From: Gemmatimonadota bacterium
GTDB lineage: Bacteria > GCA-2686955
Length of the DNA: 13,056 bases
Assembly: GCA_002686955.1 (NCBI GenBank)
Contig: NYZA01000225.1
Location: forward strand, 1-13,056
Reading direction: 5' to 3'
Position numbers and translations under genes: made by a program. The notes under the pieces were generated by a model. It searched no databases and was not told the origin of the DNA. It saw nothing but the letters and a program-made list of their open reading frames with translations. Every line of letters begins with the position of its first letter. Position 1 is the stretch's first letter. Below, piece by piece: positions 1-13,056 of this stretch.

Positions 1-301
1 GACGAGGTAGTCGAAGTCGCGCCGAGCACGGCTCGCTGTGGGCCGACGAAAGTGCCGCGCTTCGGGGGCAGGCGATCAAAGTTAGGCGACCCGCCGCCTC
101 AACCGGACCGATCTCTGCTGCAAGCATGTGCGCGTCCTGATTCTCATTTGATGTGTAGCTTCGCTGCCGATTGCGGGCCATCGCGCACCTCCATCGCGAT
201 GACCTCTACCCGGACCCTGGGCCCCGGTTTGCGGGGGCGATCGCAGATGGAAAGTGCGGGGCAAGAGCAACTACCGACTAAGCACAGAAAGCTGATCGGG
301 G

Positions 302-409
302 GAGTTGCGTGATCTCAGGCGCCGCAGGATGCGGGCGCCGGTCTTGGCGATCGGTGACGGTGCCCTCGGATTCTGGGTGGCTGTGCGTTACGAGTGGCCC
401 GAAACTCGA
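302..409 (+). pseudogene. IS256-family transposase remnant (short internal fragment)
   Basis: About 35 codons in one frame read as the middle of an IS256-family transposase. The peptide includes the segment APVLAIGDGALGFW, followed after a few residues by PETR. In intact members of this DDE transposase family this motif precedes a conserved QRCW and HKT stretch, and neither is present here. After PETR the frame runs on into unrelated sequence. No other part of the transposase (neither the N-terminus nor the C-terminal catalytic Glu region) and no terminal inverted repeats were found nearby. This is therefore a relic of a former insertion sequence and not an active element. The assignment rests on motif recognition alone. 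Confidence 0.6.
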
Positions 410-515
410 AGCGCAATCGATCCCCAACAGCAAGAAGTCAGGTTCTCGTTGAACCATTACAGCTGGCAGTTCGAACTCATCAGGCCGCGGGCTTCGGGTG
501 GAGAGAGGCGGGAGT

Positions 516-904
516 ATGGCGCTCTCATGGCAGGTCGCTGAAGCCGCCATGGGCAGACCCCTAACACGGCGGTACACCCTCATCTTGGTCGTCGTCGCGC
601 TCCTCGCGTGCGCGGCGGGTCTCATGCACGGCGTCCCGCTTTCCGGCGCCGCTCCCGGGCCCATGCAGTCCACGGTCTGTCTCCTCCTATCGCTGAAGGT
701 CCTGGACTTCCTCGTGGCCGCCATTGCCGTAGGGTATCGTGTATTCAATCTCCGCCGGGCTCGTGCTGTGACGCTGTGATCAGTGTGATCCTGGCGCTCT
801 GGGTTCCTATCGGAACCGCCGTGTTCCTGTACTGGGTCACCCGCATACGTCCCATCGAGAACGGCCTGGAGTATCCGAGACTATCGACGAGGTCGATCCA
901 GTGA
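516..904 (+). pseudogene. Small membrane protein, reading frame broken by a frameshift
   Basis: From ATG 516 (preceded by a purine-rich gaggcggga) the frame encodes a protein with two likely membrane helices. The first is LILVVVALLACAAGL and the second follows near CLLLSLKVLDFLVAAIAV. It stops at 777-779. The frame shifted by -1 continues directly as VISVILALWVPIGTAVFL, a third strong membrane segment, then a short polar tail ending at 902-904. The simplest reading is one three-helix protein of about 125 residues with one base lost near 770-778. Alternatives are a GTG start at 776 that makes a separate 42-residue membrane peptide translated by stop-start overlap, or a sequencing error. The codons are GC-rich at third positions, as in genuine genes. 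I do not recognise the family. Confidence 0.4.
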
Positions 905-1537
905 GCCTCAGAGAGGGTCTACGCGTGTGTGCGGCCCACGGGGCAAGACCGGGGCCCGTCGGCAGTCGGCATGGTCCGATCCGGCGTGCGAGGCCCGTCG
1001 TAATCCGTGTTCGTGTTCGCCACTACATGTGCCGTCTCGCGAGCGCGATCCCGATCTCGCTCGCCCCAGGACCACGCTCCCTGGGCTCGTCCTGCCTCTT
1101 CTCCCCTAAGGCTGCCTTGCCCCTGATCCGGGGAACGTTGGAGAGCAAGGGTCAGCGAGCGGAGCACGATATCCGCCTTCCCGCCCTGGGGATCAGCTTC
1201 TAGGTCCGGTCGGCCCTCTACTACGTTGACCTGGGCCACGACGATGACATGGCAAGCTTTCCCCTCGAGATCGACCGTCCGTACGCAAGCGGTCGAACTC
1301 AGGCGTCAAGGGCTCTGACGGTCGAGATCTGATCGCAGCGGCGTGTCGGCGAAGAGCTCCTTAGCGTGGACGATGAGATTGAGCAGGCATGCGCGCCTTT
1401 CCGGCTGCGGAGCAGGCGTGAGCGCGCACACAAGCGTGGCAAACCGATCGACCGAACTCCGGCATCATGCGCGTTCTTGTGAAAGGGAATCTGGCAACAT
1501 CAACCCGCATCACGACAATGCGAGACCATGGCAAACT
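905..1537. other. Gene-poor stretch, nothing recognised
   Basis: Open frames here on both strands have arginine- and proline-rich, low-information translations without motifs, hydrophobic segments or ribosome-binding sites. They look like GC-rich shadow frames. A minus-strand frame around 1315-1450 has a somewhat protein-like composition but no usable start and no recognisable family. It may be another gene fragment. Confidence 0.5.
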
Positions 1538-1861
1538 ATGGCTCTACAAGACATTACGTCGGTGTCTGCCTCGAGCGGGGCGCAGCAGCAGAGTCTGCTG
1601 TTCGGCCCTCACGAGGCGCTTGAGACGCCGAGCGAAGCTCTGGACGACGGAACAGGGCATCGAGCGCTTGAGAATCGTCATTTTCACCCGCCGGGTGAGA
1701 TCGTCAAGCTGGCGGGCAAGACCGTGTACTCCATGGCGCAGCAGGGGTGGATACCCGCATTCAAGGTGCGGGGCCAGTGGCGGATCAGGCGATCCGAGCT
1801 CGATCGGTGGATCGACGCCCAGCAGCGGAGCCGGGGAGAGGACGGCGATGGCGAAGGGTAG
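1538..1861 (+). pseudogene. Excisionase/MerR-like helix-turn-helix remnant fused to repeat sequence
   Basis: The C-terminal half (codons from 1706) reads KLAGKTVYSMAQQGWIPAFK, then a short wing-like stretch QWRIRRSELDRWID. This is the second helix, recognition region and wing of the excisionase-type helix-turn-helix domain often found just upstream of DUF1016 nucleases. The first helix expected before it is missing. In its place the frame runs back through a 79-bp sequence (1627-1705) that recurs near the right end of the window. The repeat match ends exactly where the helix-turn-helix homology begins. The open frame could still be translated from ATG 1538, but I see no convincing ribosome-binding site there. 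The 3' end overlaps the following nuclease gene by 14 bases, as expected for a coupled pair. I infer a 5'-truncated, probably inactive gene. Confidence 0.55.
1627..1705 (+). repeat. 79-bp dispersed repeat, copy A
   Basis: It aligns without gaps to the reverse complement of 11144-11222. Base-by-base comparison gives 66 of 79 identical. The match starts at GCCGAGCGAAGCTC and ends at CGGGTGAGATCGTC, with no similarity beyond either edge. In this copy it forms the N-terminal coding part of the helix-turn-helix remnant. Confidence 0.8.
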
Positions 1862-2918
1862 GTCCTGCCGAAGCAAGGGCACGCCGAAGTCCGGCGCGAA
1901 GAAGGGCGCAGCGGAGGGAGCGGCAAACCGCAAGATCGTGGCGGCCGACCAGAAGCGGGATAGGCGGACCCGCGGGCGGTCCCGTGAGGCGGCGAGCTTC
2001 CCGGTCGCGCCGACAAGTGCCGAGTTGCCCGGCGACTACCTAGCGACGCTCGCCGACATCAAGCGCCGGATCCAGGCGGAGCGCCTTCGGGTCGTCGTTG
2101 CCGCGAACACGGCCATGGTCGGCCTCTACTGGGACATCGGCCGGCTGGTTCTGGACCGACAGAGCGACGCCGGCGGGGGCGACAAGGTGATCGATAGGCT
2201 GTCGACGGACCAGCGGACCGCCTACCCGGACATGCGGGGCTTCTCAACGCGGAACCTCAAGTACATGCGGGCCTCCGCCGCCGCGTCGCACGACGCCGAA
2301 ATAGTGCGACGGGTCGTTACAAGAGTGCCGTGGCGCCGGAACATCGCCCTCCTCGAAGGTCTCGACGACTTCGAGACGCGCCTCCGGTATGCCGAACAGG
2401 CCCTGCAGCACGGCTGGTCGCAACCGATCCTACGCGTCCACATCGAGACAACCGGGACCACGAGAGTCACGGCAAGGCCATCGCCAACTTCCCCAAGACC
2501 CTGCCGCCAGCCGACTCGGACATGGCCCAACAGGTCTTCAAGGACCCGTACCTCTTCGACTTCCTCGGGACCGCCGATCCTCGACCTGCTCTTCTATCAC
2601 CTTATGCTCTGATGCTTCGTTGTCGTCGAGCTCAAGGCCGTCCCCTTCGAGCCTGCGTTCGTCGGACAGCTCAATCTGTACCTTTCGGCGGCTGACGACC
2701 TCCTTCGGCACTCGGACGACAAGCCCACCATCGGGCTCCTGCTCTGTCGCACGAAGAACAAGATCGTAGTCGAGTACGCTCTGAGTGGCTTGGCCAAGCC
2801 CATCGCCGTCGCCCAGTGGGAGACCAAGCTCGTCGAGTGGCTTCCAGATGATCTTCGAGGGAGCCTCCCGACCGTCGAGGAGATCGAGGCGGAGCTGAGC
2901 GACGGAGAGGAGCCATGA
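1848..2918 (+). pseudogene. DUF1016/YhcG-type PD-(D/E)XK nuclease, multiply broken
   Basis: The start is ATG 1848, preceded by ggggagag and overlapping the upstream frame. After a lysine/arginine-rich leader, the DUF1016 N-terminal domain is clear, with LYWDIGRLVLDRQ, GFSTRNLKYMRA and NIALLE. Three lesions follow. (1) A frameshift lies near 2448-2460, after which GKAIANFPKTLPP continues in another frame. (2) At about 2579 the sequence jumps from FDFLGTAD to LDLLFYHL, losing roughly 45-50 residues present in intact relatives and shifting back to the first frame. (3) A TGA at 2610-2612 sits where the family has Arg (CGA to TGA). The rest, CFVVVELKA to LRGSLPTVEEIEAEL, is well preserved up to the TGA at 2916-2918. 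The nuclease core Asp (DLLFYH) and ExK (ELK) remain readable, so decay is fairly recent. Intact relatives are putative nucleases of mobile or defence loci. Confidence 0.85.
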
Positions 2919-3036
2919 GTTGTACGAGGGACGCTGATCCAGCGCCAGACGATCACCGCACCGGAGACCGCATCTGTTCACGGATGTTCTCGCATTCCCT
3001 CGGTCTTTGTTGGACTGAAGCGCGAGGCGCGACCCC

Positions 3037-3059
3037 AGAAGAAAAGGCCCGAAAGCCTT
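3037..3059 (-). terminator. Possible intrinsic terminator downstream of tRNA-Ala
   Basis: Read on the minus strand, AAGGC and GCCTT form a 5-bp stem around the loop TTTCGG, followed by the T-rich run TTCTTCT. It lies about 70 bases past the tRNA-Ala 3' end. The stem is short, so support is moderate. Confidence 0.4.
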
Positions 3060-3130
3060 ATGGTAGAATGGCTTCCAGGCCTCAACCTAGTCTTCTTGGA
3101 TTCCGTTGGACGGATCTCAAAAAGTCATGA

Positions 3131-3206
3131 TGGTGGAGCCAAGGGGGATCGAACCCCTGACCTCGTGACTGCCAGTCACGCGCTCTCCCAGCTGAGCTAT
3201 GGCCCC
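3131..3206 (-). tRNA. tRNA-Ala (anticodon GGC)
   Basis: The 76-nt cloverleaf can be folded by eye. The acceptor stem is GGGGCCA with TGGCTCC, which contains the G3-U70 wobble pair that marks alanine tRNAs. The D arm is GCTC/GAGC, the anticodon stem CGTGA/TCACG with loop CTGGCAG (anticodon GGC), and the T arm AGGGG/CCCCT with loop TTCGATC. CCA is encoded. The 3' end faces the decayed accessory stretch to the left, the usual orientation for an island next to a tRNA, but I found no direct repeat of the tRNA end further left. Confidence 0.95.
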
Positions 3207-3518
3207 AGATGGAGCCGAAACGGTAGGCCATGCCCACTCCCGGGGTCAACCGCATTCGAGCTGAGCTGAGGCTTCAGTAGTCGCCACTCAACAACCCGAC
3301 GCCCAGGCAGCGCTCCTGCAGCTAGCAACGACTCGGCAGGAGCTCTTCGGCCGAGCTCAGGCCATCGATCGAATCGGCGTTCGATCGGGCGATCGCGCGG
3401 AAGTCGGGAGAAACCCGCGGATCGTTCGCGACACCGAGCCACAGATCGTGGGCGGCGCACGAGCCCGATTCTGCTTCTGGACAGCCCCCCCGGGCTCATG
3501 CCAAAGTAGCGGGTTCCA
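3207..3518. other. Intergenic region between two divergent tRNAs
   Basis: Apart from the candidate promoter for tRNA-Ala, I see no gene here. GAGCCCG and CGGGCTC near 3464-3497 could pair across a long loop before the plus-strand tRNA. This is not a convincing terminator. Confidence 0.5.
3220..3249 (-). promoter_or_regulatory. Candidate sigma70-type promoter for tRNA-Ala
   Basis: On the minus strand TTGACC (3244-3249) is followed after 18 bases by TACCGT (3220-3225), 14 bases before the tRNA. The -35 box fits well (5 of 6 to TTGACA) and the -10 box fits poorly (3 of 6). Confidence 0.35.
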
Positions 3519-3594
3519 GGGCCCATAGCTCAGCGGTTAGAGCTGCCGGCTCATAACCGGTAGGTCCCAGGTTCGAACCCTGGTGGGCCCACCA
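3519..3594 (+). tRNA. CAT-anticodon tRNA, most likely tRNA-Ile2 (lysidine type), else tRNA-Met
   Basis: This is a 76-nt cloverleaf. The acceptor stem is GGGCCCA/TGGGCCC, the anticodon stem GCCGG/CCGGT with loop CTCATAA (anticodon CAT), and the T arm CCAGG/CCTGG. CCA is encoded. CAT is used by initiator Met, elongator Met and the Ile2 tRNA, whose C34 becomes lysidine. The three G-C pairs of the initiator anticodon stem are absent. The C4-G69 and C5-G68 pairs and the short D loop AGCGGTTA match E. coli Ile2 rather than elongator Met, which has U4-A69 and A5-U68. I therefore favour Ile2. An automatic annotation would probably say Met. Confidence 0.9.
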
Positions 3595-3632
3595 TCGATT
3601 TGTTCACGCTGACCTCGATCGAGGGGGTTTCC

Positions 3633-4364
3633 TTGGCCGACACCGATATGAAGAGCGTCAACACCGCCTTGGCGCGGTTGCAGTCGCTGGACGGGCGGCT
3701 CATGGAGCTCGACCGGCAAATCGGCGGCATCCCTGGGCGGCGGGCGGCGATCGAGGCACGGCTGAGCGAGGCCAGCGGCGCGCTCGAGGCCGCCAAGGGG
3801 GGAGCCGAGGCGGATGCGGCGACGAGACGTAAGCTGGAGCGAGAGATCGAGCAGATCGAGAGCGAGCGGGCGAAGTATTTGACTCAGAGGGCGAGTGTCA
3901 AGAGCAACAGGGAGTTCGACGCGCTGAATGCCGAGATCGAGCAGGCCACGGAACGGATCTCCGCGGCCGAGGATCGGGTTCTGGATCTGCTGGAACGTGA
4001 GACGGAAAACGAAGGCGCGATCGAACATGCGGGGAGGGCGCTGCAGGCGGAGGAGTCCCGCTCGCGAGAGGATCTCGGCAAGCTCGACGCCGAGCAGGCG
4101 GCAGCCGAGGCCGAGCGCACCGAGACGACGGGAGCGAGGAACGAAGCGGCCGCCGAGTTGGGCGGAAAGCCGCTGGCGCTTTATGAGAGGATTCGACGCA
4201 CGCGCGACGGAGTCGCCGTGGTGCAGCTCGTCAACGCCTCGTGCGGAGGCTGTTATCAGGCCGTGCCACCCCAGAAAGTGGCCGAAACGCGGTCGGCATC
4301 GAAGATCGTACACTGTGAATACTGCGGGCGGATCCTGGTGAAACACGAGGCGGCCGCTTCCTGA
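3633..4364 (+). CDS. Zinc-ribbon coiled-coil protein (COG1579 / CT398-like)
   Basis: It encodes about 243 residues. I chose the TTG start at 3633 because gaggggg lies five bases upstream. ATG 3648 is the alternative, and an upstream TTG at 3600 abuts the tRNA. Residues 1 to about 180 form a long charged coiled-coil hairpin with many Glu, Ala, Arg and Leu and the pattern SVKSNREFDALNAEIEQA, typical of this family. The C-terminus has a four-cysteine zinc ribbon: C204 and C207 (SCGGC) and C228 and C231 (HCEYCG). The length matches the usual size of about 240. Members are annotated as predicted nucleic-acid-binding proteins, and the exact role is not settled. It begins 38 bases after the CAT tRNA and ends about 41 bases before RNase P RNA, a neighbourhood consistent with RNA handling. 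Confidence 0.88.
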   Translation: MADTDMKSVNTALARLQSLDGRLMELDRQIGGIPGRRAAIEARLSEASGALEAAKGGAEADAATRRKLEREIEQIESERAKYLTQRASVKSNREFDALNAEIEQATERISAAEDRVLDLLERETENEGAIEHAGRALQAEESRSREDLGKLDAEQAAAEAERTETTGARNEAAAELGGKPLALYERIRRTRDGVAVVQLVNASCGGCYQAVPPQKVAETRSASKIVHCEYCGRILVKHEAAAS

Positions 4365-4405
4365 CGCTCGTTGGAGGCGCGGCTCGAGAACGGAGGAACG
4401 GAATC

Positions 4406-4788
4406 GGGGAGCGGGTGTGACGGCCGCGGGCCCTTCGAGGGCTCGAGGAAAGTCCGAGCTCCACAGGGCACAGGTGCTGGGTAACGCCCAGGAGGGGCGA
4501 CCCTCGGAAAGTGCAACAGAGAGTAGTCCGCCGTTGGTCTCTGGCCGGCGGTAAGGGTGAAAGGGTGAGGTAAGAGCTCACCAGCGGCCCGGGTGACCGG
4601 GTCGGCTAGGCAAACCCCACCTGGAGCAAGACCAAATAGAGGAGGAGGGGTGGCCCGCCCCACTCGACTCCCGGGTTGGTCGCTCGACGCGCCGGGCAAC
4701 CGGCGTGCAAGATGGATGGTCGTCCCCTCGGCCTCGGTCCTTCGGATCGAAGCCGAAGGAACAGAACTCGGCTTACGGCCCGCTCCCC
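4406..4788 (+). ncRNA. rnpB: RNase P RNA, bacterial class A
   Basis: This is the catalytic RNA that removes 5' leaders from tRNA precursors together with the RnpA protein. The conserved blocks appear in order: GAGGAAAGTCCGAGCTCC (4445-4462), GGAAAGTGCAACAGAGAG, AAGGGTGAAAGGGTGAGGTA, GGCTAGGCAAACCCC, GCAAGACCAAATAG, AGATGGATGGTCGTC and ACAGAACTCGGCTTACGG (4761-4778). The ends were set by the P1 helix, where GGGGAGCGGG (4406-4415) pairs perfectly with CCCGCTCCCC (4779-4788). This gives about 383 nt, normal for class A. It lies between the zinc-ribbon gene and rel, about 36 bases before the rel start. No separate terminator is evident, so rel may be transcribed from the same region. Confidence 0.96.
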
Positions 4789-4824
4789 ACTCCGGTCCTT
4801 CCATTCGCGAACGAAACAAGGGCG

Positions 4825-10807: not shown

Positions 10808-11062
10808 TCACTTCCTCAGGGAGCTGCGATCGAGCGTGCGCCGCACTCGCGCGACCAACGCCGACGCGGTAAAGGGCTTCTGCAGCAGGTCCACCTCGTC
10901 TCCGAAGGCGCGCAGACTCCACAGAGTGTTGCCAGTGTAGCCAGAAACGAAGAGCACGCGGGGCAGCGGCCCATTTTCCGCCGCCTGCACCACAAAATCG
11001 GGGCCGCAAAGCCCCGGCATGATCACATCGCTGACGATGGATGTTCCCTCTGCTTCGAACAC
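10808..11062 (-). pseudogene. Response-regulator receiver domain, N-terminal half missing
   Basis: It encodes 84 residues from GTG 11062 on the minus strand, with GAGGAG directly in front and an in-frame TGA just upstream. The peptide carries the second half of a CheY-like receiver: the phospho-acceptor Asp region SDVIMPGLCGPDFV, LPRVLFVSGYTGN with the conserved Ser/Thr position, and LLQKPFTASALVARVRRTLD with the conserved Lys. The first two strands and the acidic pocket that binds magnesium, normally about 50 residues, are absent. It therefore cannot form a normal receiver. The wording MPGxxGPxFV, SGYT and KPF is typical of receivers at the C-terminus of hybrid histidine kinases, so this is probably the tail of a deleted kinase. 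The stop is seven bases from the convergent metalloprotease stop. Confidence 0.75.
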
Positions 11063-11143
11063 CTCCTCTCAGAGATTGCACTTCGGTTCGGCTTCCGGCC
11101 TGGTGGCTAGCCTTTGGCCGGGCGGGACCTGATCGCCGTCACC

Positions 11144-11222
11144 GACGATCTCACCCGCTGGGTGACATTGACGAATTTCAAGGGTTTGAGGCCCTATTCC
11201 ATCGTCCCGAGCTTCGCTCGGC
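11144..11222 (-). repeat. 79-bp dispersed repeat, copy B
   Basis: It is a gapless match (66 of 79 identical) to 1627-1705 in inverted orientation. Unlike copy A it has a preceding arm: on the minus strand ATCGT-G-CCGAGC pairs with GCTCGG-G-ACGAT around GAA, and TTCC further out pairs with GGAA. It lies directly after the stop codon of the HNH-toroid gene. Confidence 0.8.
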
Positions 11223-11243
11223 ACGATCAGGAAGTTGTTAGAC
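11190..11243 (-). other. attC-like palindrome at the 3' end of the HNH-toroid gene
   Basis: On the minus strand the box GTCTAAC (11237-11243) fits the integron core consensus RYYYAAC and contains the gene's TAA stop. It is followed by the imperfect palindrome described for repeat copy B. The expected closing box GTTRRRY is not intact: after GGAA the sequence reads TAGGGC, as if GT were lost. It is either a degenerate attC site or a repeat with a chance core box. Confidence 0.4.
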
Positions 11244-12905
11244 CTTCTTGCCTTGCAGCTCACGTGCAACCCTCACCCTGGGTACCACATCTCTAACTAC
11301 CGCCTCTCGCACCGCATGCCCAGACTCGCAGAGCGTGTCCAGCTCCGCGAGGATACTCGCTGGGATCTCCGTTCGCCCATTCAGCAATTCCTGGCACTCC
11401 TTCAGGATCGGGTCAGATCGCTCCAAGAACGTACCCTTGTCCAAAGCATCTCCCAAATCCAGCATTCGGCTGAATGTCAAGACCGCGTGCCAAGTGTGCG
11501 TGAACCATTCGGCCGGCGCGCTGTTCCATTTCAGCCCTGCTATTCCAAGCCATGACAAGCCCTCCTCCACGTCTCCGGGAGAGATGTGCGCGCGCCGCTG
11601 GAGTTGCAGCGCCGCATCGACATACGACGCACATGTACCAACATTTGGGACTGAGAAACAGCGATCACCCTCGACTCCGCCGAGTGGCATACCGTCAGTC
11701 CGTTTGCCAATGCCCTTCAAGTGCTCGAAGACCATGACGGCTTTGTCGACCCACACGGGCTCCATCCATACATCCTCTATCCGGAGAAGTTTCGCTAGGA
11801 GAAGCAGGGTGTAGAAACAGGCAGTATCTGGGTGATCGTCCGTACACCACATCGCATTCGCTGGGGAGATTGGGCTCAGCAGCGTCTCAATCCCCTGTCG
11901 GATCGCCCCACTCAATCTCTCGCGCTGCGACTTGAAGCTCATGTACTGCCGTAGCGTGCTGAACGCCTCGAGTAGCTGAATTGCGGTATGATGCATCGGA
12001 GGCCATTCGCGGGAGGCCTCCATGACCGAGAGCAACATCTCTCCCCGTTCCTCTATCCATTTCCCGATCTCTCCGCGGGCGGCCGATGATGCGACGTGAC
12101 CCCGCAGTCGCGTCAGGGTAAGGATCGCAGCGGACGTATGGCGGATCTCCTTTCGCAGACCCTGCACCTCGTCAGGGTTTCCCGGGCTCCTGGGTTGTAT
12201 CAGACCGAAGTGGGTCTCATTTCTCTCTATCCACGCCCGGATTGGGCCCGCATCTACGCAACCCGGTCGACACCCGTAGTCCCCCAGCGCCTGCAACGCA
12301 AGCGCTGTATGCGTAATGCTGCCGTCGCGCAGGTACCCGTCCTTCCCGGCGATCACGGCTGGGTCACGCGCGTAGTTCAGAAGAATGTAACGGTCTATCG
12401 TCAGTCCCCAAGTGCCTACACGCGGGATCTGATCCAGCCGCAAGAGTACGTACGCCACGCGACATAGACTTGAAGTCTCGCACGCATTTGGCACGCGAAG
12501 CGGTTCGGCCTGCCCATCGGCCTTGCCGCGTTCGCCTCTGTGCGTGCTATTGGTTTGACTTGGTCCGCTCGCTTGCCCAAGTGCATGCCCGTCTACACCC
12601 GGCCCCACCCTTTCCGCACACTCGGCCGCTTGGAGAAATTCGTACAATTCTGACCTACACTGTATCAACTCGCCTTCCGAGTAGTTCTTGGCGAAACCTC
12701 CTCTCTTCTCCACATCGTCGTGATGCTCAAGGCACAGGAATACGAGATTCGCCTCCCGGTTGTTTCTTGGGTCGCGATCGATGTGGTGTATCTGCCCCTT
12801 CCTTTCGACATCCAGTCGTCTCAAGGTAAAACACAGACAACAACGCCTCCTGCTTTTGCGCAGGAGATCCCCTTCTTGCTTCTTCGGGATCTTCTTTCTG
12901 GTCAT
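11238..12905 (-). CDS. HNH endonuclease fused to a helical alpha/alpha-toroid-like domain; possible defence cassette
   Basis: It encodes 555 residues from ATG 12905, 11 bases past a GTTAGAC box, without a clear Shine-Dalgarno sequence. Residues 15-95 form an HNH (beta-beta-alpha metal) domain: C22 and C25 (CCLC), QIHHIDRDPRNNREANL with H40/H41 and N49, and CLEHHDD giving C58 and H61/H62. These provide a CxxC...CxxH zinc site and the H-N-H catalytic set. Residues 92-143 look like a flexible linker. The rest is helical, with repeated segments such as SLCRVAYVLLRLDQ...GTWG, GSITHTALALQALGDYG and WFTHTWHAVLTFSRML, reminiscent of prenyltransferase/squalene-cyclase toroids. Its catalytic residues are not recognisable, so a sensing or binding role is as likely as enzymatic activity. 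No partner gene lies alongside. The function is unknown; a nuclease effector is inference. Confidence 0.85.
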   Translation of the reverse strand: MTRKKIPKKQEGDLLRKSRRRCCLCFTLRRLDVERKGQIHHIDRDPRNNREANLVFLCLEHHDDVEKRGGFAKNYSEGELIQCRSELYEFLQAAECAERVGPGVDGHALGQASGPSQTNSTHRGERGKADGQAEPLRVPNACETSSLCRVAYVLLRLDQIPRVGTWGLTIDRYILLNYARDPAVIAGKDGYLRDGSITHTALALQALGDYGCRPGCVDAGPIRAWIERNETHFGLIQPRSPGNPDEVQGLRKEIRHTSAAILTLTRLRGHVASSAARGEIGKWIEERGEMLLSVMEASREWPPMHHTAIQLLEAFSTLRQYMSFKSQRERLSGAIRQGIETLLSPISPANAMWCTDDHPDTACFYTLLLLAKLLRIEDVWMEPVWVDKAVMVFEHLKGIGKRTDGMPLGGVEGDRCFSVPNVGTCASYVDAALQLQRRAHISPGDVEEGLSWLGIAGLKWNSAPAEWFTHTWHAVLTFSRMLDLGDALDKGTFLERSDPILKECQELLNGRTEIPASILAELDTLCESGHAVREAVVRDVVPRVRVARELQGKKV

Positions 12906-12915
12906 CGTTCAAATG

Positions 12916-12972
12916 GTCTAACGCTCCGGTTCAGCGGCGGCGCTTGCGCCGTCCGACTGCAACCGGTTGTGT
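12916..12972 (-). other. Integron attC-like recombination site upstream of the HNH-toroid gene
   Basis: Read on the minus strand it ends in GTTAGAC (12916-12922), a perfect GTTRRRY core box. CCGGTTCAG (12926-12934) pairs with CTGCAACCGG (12957-12966), CGG with CCG, and CGGCG with CGCCG around a tiny loop. Three bases (12952, 12956, 12960) bulge from the same strand, as extrahelical bases do in attC sites. The other core box is degenerate (GTTGTGT on the plus strand). Confidence 0.65.
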
Positions 12973-13018: not shown

Positions 13019-13056
13019 AGGATCGAAGATGTGAGAGCATCTCTAACCATTAGCGA

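Follow-up and report, generated by a model that had tools for sequence, protein, structure and literature searches.

A complete gene on the minus strand of the analysed DNA (the window, 13,056 nt) joins an N-terminal HNH endonuclease module to a helical C-terminal region that is predicted to form an (alpha/alpha)6 toroid (Table 1). Sequence comparison suggests an integron-type cassette for a single-protein conflict effector, most likely anti-phage, in which the toroid would gate the DNase; the chances of this reading are evenly balanced. Its strongest form, a new immune system of a single gene that spread on integron cassettes, with an (alpha/alpha)6 toroid as the infection sensor that directly switches an HNH nuclease, is put forward more tentatively. 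The 555-codon gene proposed by the first-pass annotation, which named no strand for it, was confirmed as an open reading frame (ORF).

Table 1. Positions of the HNH-toroid protein gene, its parts and its flanking elements in the window (L042 is the homologue described in the text)
Feature	Positions	Strand	Details and basis
HNH-toroid protein gene	11238..12905	-	Complete 555-codon ORF; ATG at 12905, TAA 11238-11240
HNH endonuclease module, residues 1-92	12630..12905	-	56 related loci; invariant columns over 48 proteins
Linker, residues 93-147, unconserved	12465..12629	-	Full-length alignment; pLDDT about 30 or lower
Predicted (alpha/alpha)6 toroid, residues 148-490	11436..12464	-	VIA-align; low-confidence model
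C-terminal helical extension, residues 491-555	11241..11435	-	Absent from L042 (alignment ends); low-confidence model
attC-like hairpin upstream	12916..12972	-	Ends in core GTTAGAC (12916-12922), 10 nt before ATG
GTCTAAC, R''-type core over stop codon	11237..11243	-	Exact inverse of upstream core
Repeat, ~184 nt, in place of rest of attC	11057..11240	-	Starts at stop codon; copies on contigs C186, C198

The HNH module was matched by Pfam HNH_3 (PF13392) below its cut-off (19.5 vs 24.8 bits, E 7.7e-4) and by PADLOC ZorE models weakly over residues 38-86 (E 3.7e-4); an NCBIfam search of the protein gave no match. A search of GTDB genomes with residues 1-96, aligned from three sequences, placed the module in 56 loci, mostly at 40-50% identity, and residue conservation was taken from 48 full-length proteins. 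R20, C22, C25, Q38, H41, N53, L54, C58, H62, E79 and L87 were invariant and H61 was kept in 46 of the 48. Position 40 was Ala in the same number of proteins (46/48), the His at this position being peculiar to the HNH-toroid protein, and position 49 varied freely. The residues first listed as the HNH/zinc set (C22, C25, H40, H41, N49, C58, H61 and H62) are thus all present, but H40 and N49 are not conserved; because N53 is invariant and N49 is variable, N49 was dropped as the motif asparagine in favor of N53. By analogy to HNH enzymes, the zinc site most probably comprises C22, C25, C58 and H61, and the core H41, N53 and H62. The zinc Cys/His and H...N...H core that mark the HNH superfamily are, by alignment, present (C22, C25, H41, N53, C58, H61, H62). 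The family motif C[CA].CF...GQIAHxD...NLxxLC.xHHD.YDSxTSQSKG is found in the protein with its YDSxTSQSKG stretch changed: EKRGGFAKN stands where the family has DSxTSQSKG, and two near-invariant places are altered (D66 to E and Q71 to F). Since a related HNH protein of another phylum (L089) has a similar SGGFGR stretch, this change need not mean an inactive HNH domain.

The 56 loci belonged to Pseudomonadota, Planctomycetota, Acidobacteriota, Cyanobacteria, Bacteroidota, Nitrospirae, an archaeal MAG and other hosts. The module was N-terminal in every locus, and the C-terminal parts were very different: NB-ARC and TPR (L038 and L064), TPR (L055), AbiTii (L065; Pfam E 8e-8), a Shedu (SduA)/DUF4263-like part (L071 and L081), a NERD-UvrD-type helicase (L059; E 2e-20) and, by eye, a PD-(D/E)XK-like part (L090). 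Many further proteins had C-terminal domains without a recognisable family. The PADLOC endonuclease 'Effector' model (PDLC00749) weakly matched 20 of the 48 proteins and the SAVED_HNH model weakly matched seven. Viral contigs yielded one match to the module, an HNH-type stretch inside a larger unrelated protein, and plasmid matches to the HNH-toroid protein covered the HNH part only. One member, on the Agrobacterium plasmid At, adjoins qatC and qatD. Across the loci, defence genes were found both near the HNH-module genes and far from them (distal genes served as the control), which supports no claim of enrichment. In one genome two HNH-module genes stand in tandem (L088 1414-1908 and L090 1468-2211), the second being the gene with the PD-(D/E)XK-like end seen by eye.

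One constant effector on variable sensors is a design known from bacterial conflict systems (PMC7159879, PMC8195603). Mainly because the same N-terminal module sits on so many C-terminal partners, we infer that the HNH module is a swappable effector of immune type, in line with the effector module originally proposed for this gene. In these comparisons, fusion of the module to a variable C-terminal domain is common and its pairing with a toroid is rare.

The C-terminal part of the protein was not recognised in Pfam, NCBIfam or PDB sequence searches. GTWG and ALALQAL motifs, which had been taken as signs of repeated helical segments, were located at residues 164-167 and 201-207, and further motifs of (H/D/G)T type recur in inner helices at 199, 256, 306, 360, 423 and about 470 (360 and 470 read by eye). 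Because these motifs recur and the region has a genuine homologue, the helical repeat is more than chance. Prediction of the full-length structure from the single sequence gave a poor model (pLDDT 43.8), which matched a mixture of toroids, 14-3-3 proteins and designed bundles. A model of residues 137-555 was then built from two sequences (pLDDT 49.7, pTM 0.49). The VIA-align list for this model was dominated by toroid-type folds, which matched model residues 12-354 with Z of 12-15.8. GlcNAc/cellobiose 2-epimerases were the best matches (Z up to 15.8, 5.4 A over 285 residues), and GH105, GH88, complement C3d, C4d and C5, squalene-hopene cyclase, LanC and GH8 were also matched; sequence identity to the structurally matched toroid enzymes was 6-12%. 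Unrelated helical models can reach Z near 14 in VIA-align, so the toroid call rests on the uniformity of the match list. Foldseek searches with the same model gave no match with E < 0.001, and the list mixed GH76 toroids, 14-3-3, TPR and other helical repeats. Residues 148-490 are therefore likely to form an (alpha/alpha)6 toroid, whose superfamily is not assignable. The fold search on the C-terminal domain, which the first-pass annotation had named as its check, returned toroids; the toroid-like domain is favoured by the VIA-align list, but the model has a pLDDT of only 49.7 and Foldseek alone was not significant.

In the proposed mechanism, the HNH module would be a metal-dependent DNase of the type swapped between sensors in bacterial immunity, and the toroid would be the sensor, with a central cavity that takes a ligand, or else a phage or host component. 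The bound toroid would release or assemble the HNH domain, which would then cut invader DNA, or host DNA in abortive infection. Ligand binding, gating, DNA cleavage and defence are all proposed functions of the protein. Alternatively, the protein could be a restriction-type nuclease in which the C-terminal domain reads DNA itself, for example DNA that is modified or has a particular structure, and guides the HNH domain with no ligand gating. Such designs are known from SRA-HNH and phosphorothioate-dependent enzymes (PMC10853773), and the HNH family itself includes the two members with a DUF4263/SduA-like part and L090 with its PD-(D/E)XK-like part seen by eye. The matched toroids, however, bind sugar, lipid, peptide or protein and are not known DNA readers, and no DNA-binding domain was recognised in the HNH-toroid protein; a DNA-reading role is considered unlikely.

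The proposed carriage of the single gene on a cassette was examined at both ends of the ORF. The DNA fold of the upstream hairpin had z of -3.8 to -3.95, and none of 200 shuffles was as stable. GTTAGAC, a core-site sequence of integrons, occurred exactly twice on the two strands of the 13 kb window, bracketing the HNH-toroid ORF. Among 377 ORFs of the same genome (>= 60 aa, in the stretches examined), paired cores surrounded the HNH-toroid gene only; a looser paired-core test in other genomes was positive for 1 of 314 control ORFs. A strict attC pattern scan gave no match anywhere. The relaxed pattern found the upstream site but also gave 2.0 matches per shuffled window and alone is not significant, so the argument for a cassette relies on where the site lies and on the pairing of the cores. 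A complete 3' attC is missing: GTCTAAC is followed by no GTTRRRY core, and a genomic repeat starts there. On another contig (C198) the copy of this repeat also lies directly after a stop codon. Lacking a complete attC at the 3' end, the gene can be called cassette-like or a former cassette but not a complete cassette. The single-gene cassette of the first-pass annotation thus stands as to the paired GTTAGAC/GTCTAAC cores and the attC-like hairpin upstream, but not as to the downstream attC, which the repeat replaces.

A 79-nt repeat at 1627-1705 (+) is 84% identical to 11144-11222 (-), and contigs C186 and C198 carry longer copies, C147 a piece. The copy at 1627-1705 falls within an HTH frame, whose N-terminal part it apparently replaces. 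Adjoining the repeat beside the HNH-toroid gene, a response-regulator receiver-like fragment without its N-terminal half was noted by eye at 10808-11062 (-). An incomplete integrase-like match was found below the cut-off on contig C58, and no intact integron integrase was found in the assembly (84.5% complete). At one of the compared loci (L018 1258-2174, +), an integron-integrase-like frame with a VSASTQNQA motif appears broken or shortened.

Two other loci of the HNH family support, by sequence comparison, the cassette carriage of HNH-module genes. In a gammaproteobacterial MAG (L049), the HNH gene follows an attC-like site ending in GTTAGGT and has the inverse core at its stop; another HNH-type gene precedes it. 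In L087, a 131-nt attC (GCCTAAC to GTTAGGC) precedes the HNH gene, and the same two cores also flank the preceding gene. At a third locus (L041) an attC lies about 3.5 kb from the HNH gene. In L049 (1668-3281), a transposase-like gene was observed just past the HNH cassette, apparently in or beside its attC. In L087 (605-1339 and 1334-1464), a cassette gene of TIR-like or nucleotide-binding type, judged by eye, is followed by a complete attC and then by the HNH-module cassette.

According to a review, roughly 10% of V. cholerae integron cassettes showed anti-phage activity (PMC12409362). A conflict or toxin-type DNase carried on a cassette could instead serve plasmid exclusion or the stability of the cassette array, or act as a selfish toxin. 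Cassette carriage and a complete nuclease gene with no visible partner would fit such a role. No antitoxin-like partner was seen in the cassette, however, and the fusion partners of the HNH family include NB-ARC, AbiTii and Shedu-like parts; a role other than phage defence is accordingly rated somewhat lower still than DNA reading.

The single homologue with both parts, L042, is a 454-aa protein of a Nitrospirae MAG in which the HNH module is again joined to the toroid part. It aligned with the HNH-toroid protein at 26% identity over residues 1-407 (104 bits). When the last 455 residues were searched separately, the C-terminal match alone had E 2e-7 among 57 candidates, with 25% identity over 276 columns. 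The architecture is thus, by alignment, one that occurs in two phyla. R255, H256, W353 and H358 are common to both proteins and could line the cavity. In the L042 locus (293-4811), the gene was seen by eye downstream of guaA-, ispA- and dxs-like core genes, as a lone accessory gene of an ordinary chromosome.

These shared residues also bear on another possibility: the toroid might itself have enzymatic activity, like an epimerase, lyase or cyclase, and either produce or use up a signal, with the HNH domain responding to the product or acting alone. GlcNAc/cellobiose 2-epimerases and GH105/GH88 enzymes head the structural matches, and the four residues could belong to such a cavity. Against this, the protein shows no recognisable catalytic set, shares only the low identity given above with these enzymes and had no significant match in PDB sequence searches; an enzymatic toroid is judged improbable.

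Further cases of the pairing were sought widely. No close full-length relatives were found in genome or viral contigs or in phages. Searches with the toroid profile turned up no additional true homologue among 386 diverse genomes, in viral contigs, in plasmids or among 395 genomes from the phylum of L042; the matches of E about 0.0025 in these 395 were at chance level. A full-protein search of 195 genomes of the Myxococcus phylum and a full-length profile search of 80 genomes of a further phylum returned only HNH matches and one weak linker match. Within the genomes, viral contigs and plasmids searched, the HNH-toroid pairing is rare, with two cases identified, and no description of it was found in the openly accessible literature. 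The pairing had been called unusual, which agrees with these two cases, but an HNH module with a variable C-terminus is in itself common.

The 4.28 Mb assembly (84.5% complete) contained one copy of the gene, at the position given in Table 1. The contig, which also carries relA/spoT, a laccase-domain gene and maf, breaks off at 13056, only 151 nt beyond the start of the gene, and this cuts off the view of any cassette array. The setting is an ordinary chromosome with housekeeping neighbours, not a defence island. The gene was absent from the single other genome of the same family and phylum compared, which is the whole comparison base in this poorly sampled phylum. Because of that absence it is not a conserved housekeeping gene, and a housekeeping role was ruled out on this ground together with the single copy. 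Elsewhere in the window (1467-2612, +), an HTH_17 excisionase-like frame is followed by a DUF1016-like coding sequence that is apparently frameshifted; a second mobile or conflict gene pair has probably left these frames as remnants. That the HNH-toroid gene is itself a decaying passenger with no present function, as the incomplete downstream attC, the lack of an intact integron integrase among the contigs and the frameshifted look of the HTH and DUF1016-like remnants might suggest, is very improbable given its intact 555-codon frame, the retention of all core HNH residues and the conservation of toroid motifs with the distant homologue L042.

Were the nuclease indeed gated by the toroid, the ligand of the toroid would represent an infection signal of a new type. 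The fold is known from sugar epimerases, terpene cyclases and complement C3d. The comparisons also bring out a widespread HNH effector module, below Pfam and NCBIfam cut-offs in the proteins examined, that sits on many putative sensors, and add a toroid-type domain to its partners. The module offers a handle for finding more single-gene defence candidates in integron arrays, and the HNH-toroid gene, as a single self-contained ORF, is directly testable in E. coli.

Among known systems, the HNH effectors of CBASS (Cap5, SAVED-HNH) are similar in that an HNH DNase is gated by a C-terminal ligand-binding domain, a gating that is proposed for the HNH-toroid protein. The latter differs as a single gene with a putative toroid-type sensor in place of a SAVED domain, for which the protein gave no match; up to the contig end close upstream, the main ORFs of the window included no recognised CD-NTase or SAVED gene. 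ZorE of Zorya II shares an HNH domain, through the weak PADLOC match at residues 38-86. That match, however, involves the C-terminal end of the profile, and the toroid part is unrelated to ZorE; zorA and zorB were likewise not seen among the main ORFs up to that contig end. Anti-phage integron cassettes (PMC12409362) resemble the HNH-toroid gene as small self-contained genes with integron-type cores, whereas for the latter the downstream attC is incomplete and no intact integron integrase was found in the assembly. The predicted overall fold is shared with GlcNAc 2-epimerase, GH105, C3d/C4d, squalene-hopene cyclase and LanC, from which the protein differs in its 6-12% identity, in the lack of a recognised catalytic set and in its fusion to a nuclease. 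Finally, the STAND and TPR conflict proteins show the same arrangement of one N-terminal effector on many sensors, including NB-ARC/TPR in the same HNH family; the toroid, however, belongs to neither the NTPase nor the TPR type and is absent from the sensors described in the available portions of PMC7159879 and PMC8195603.
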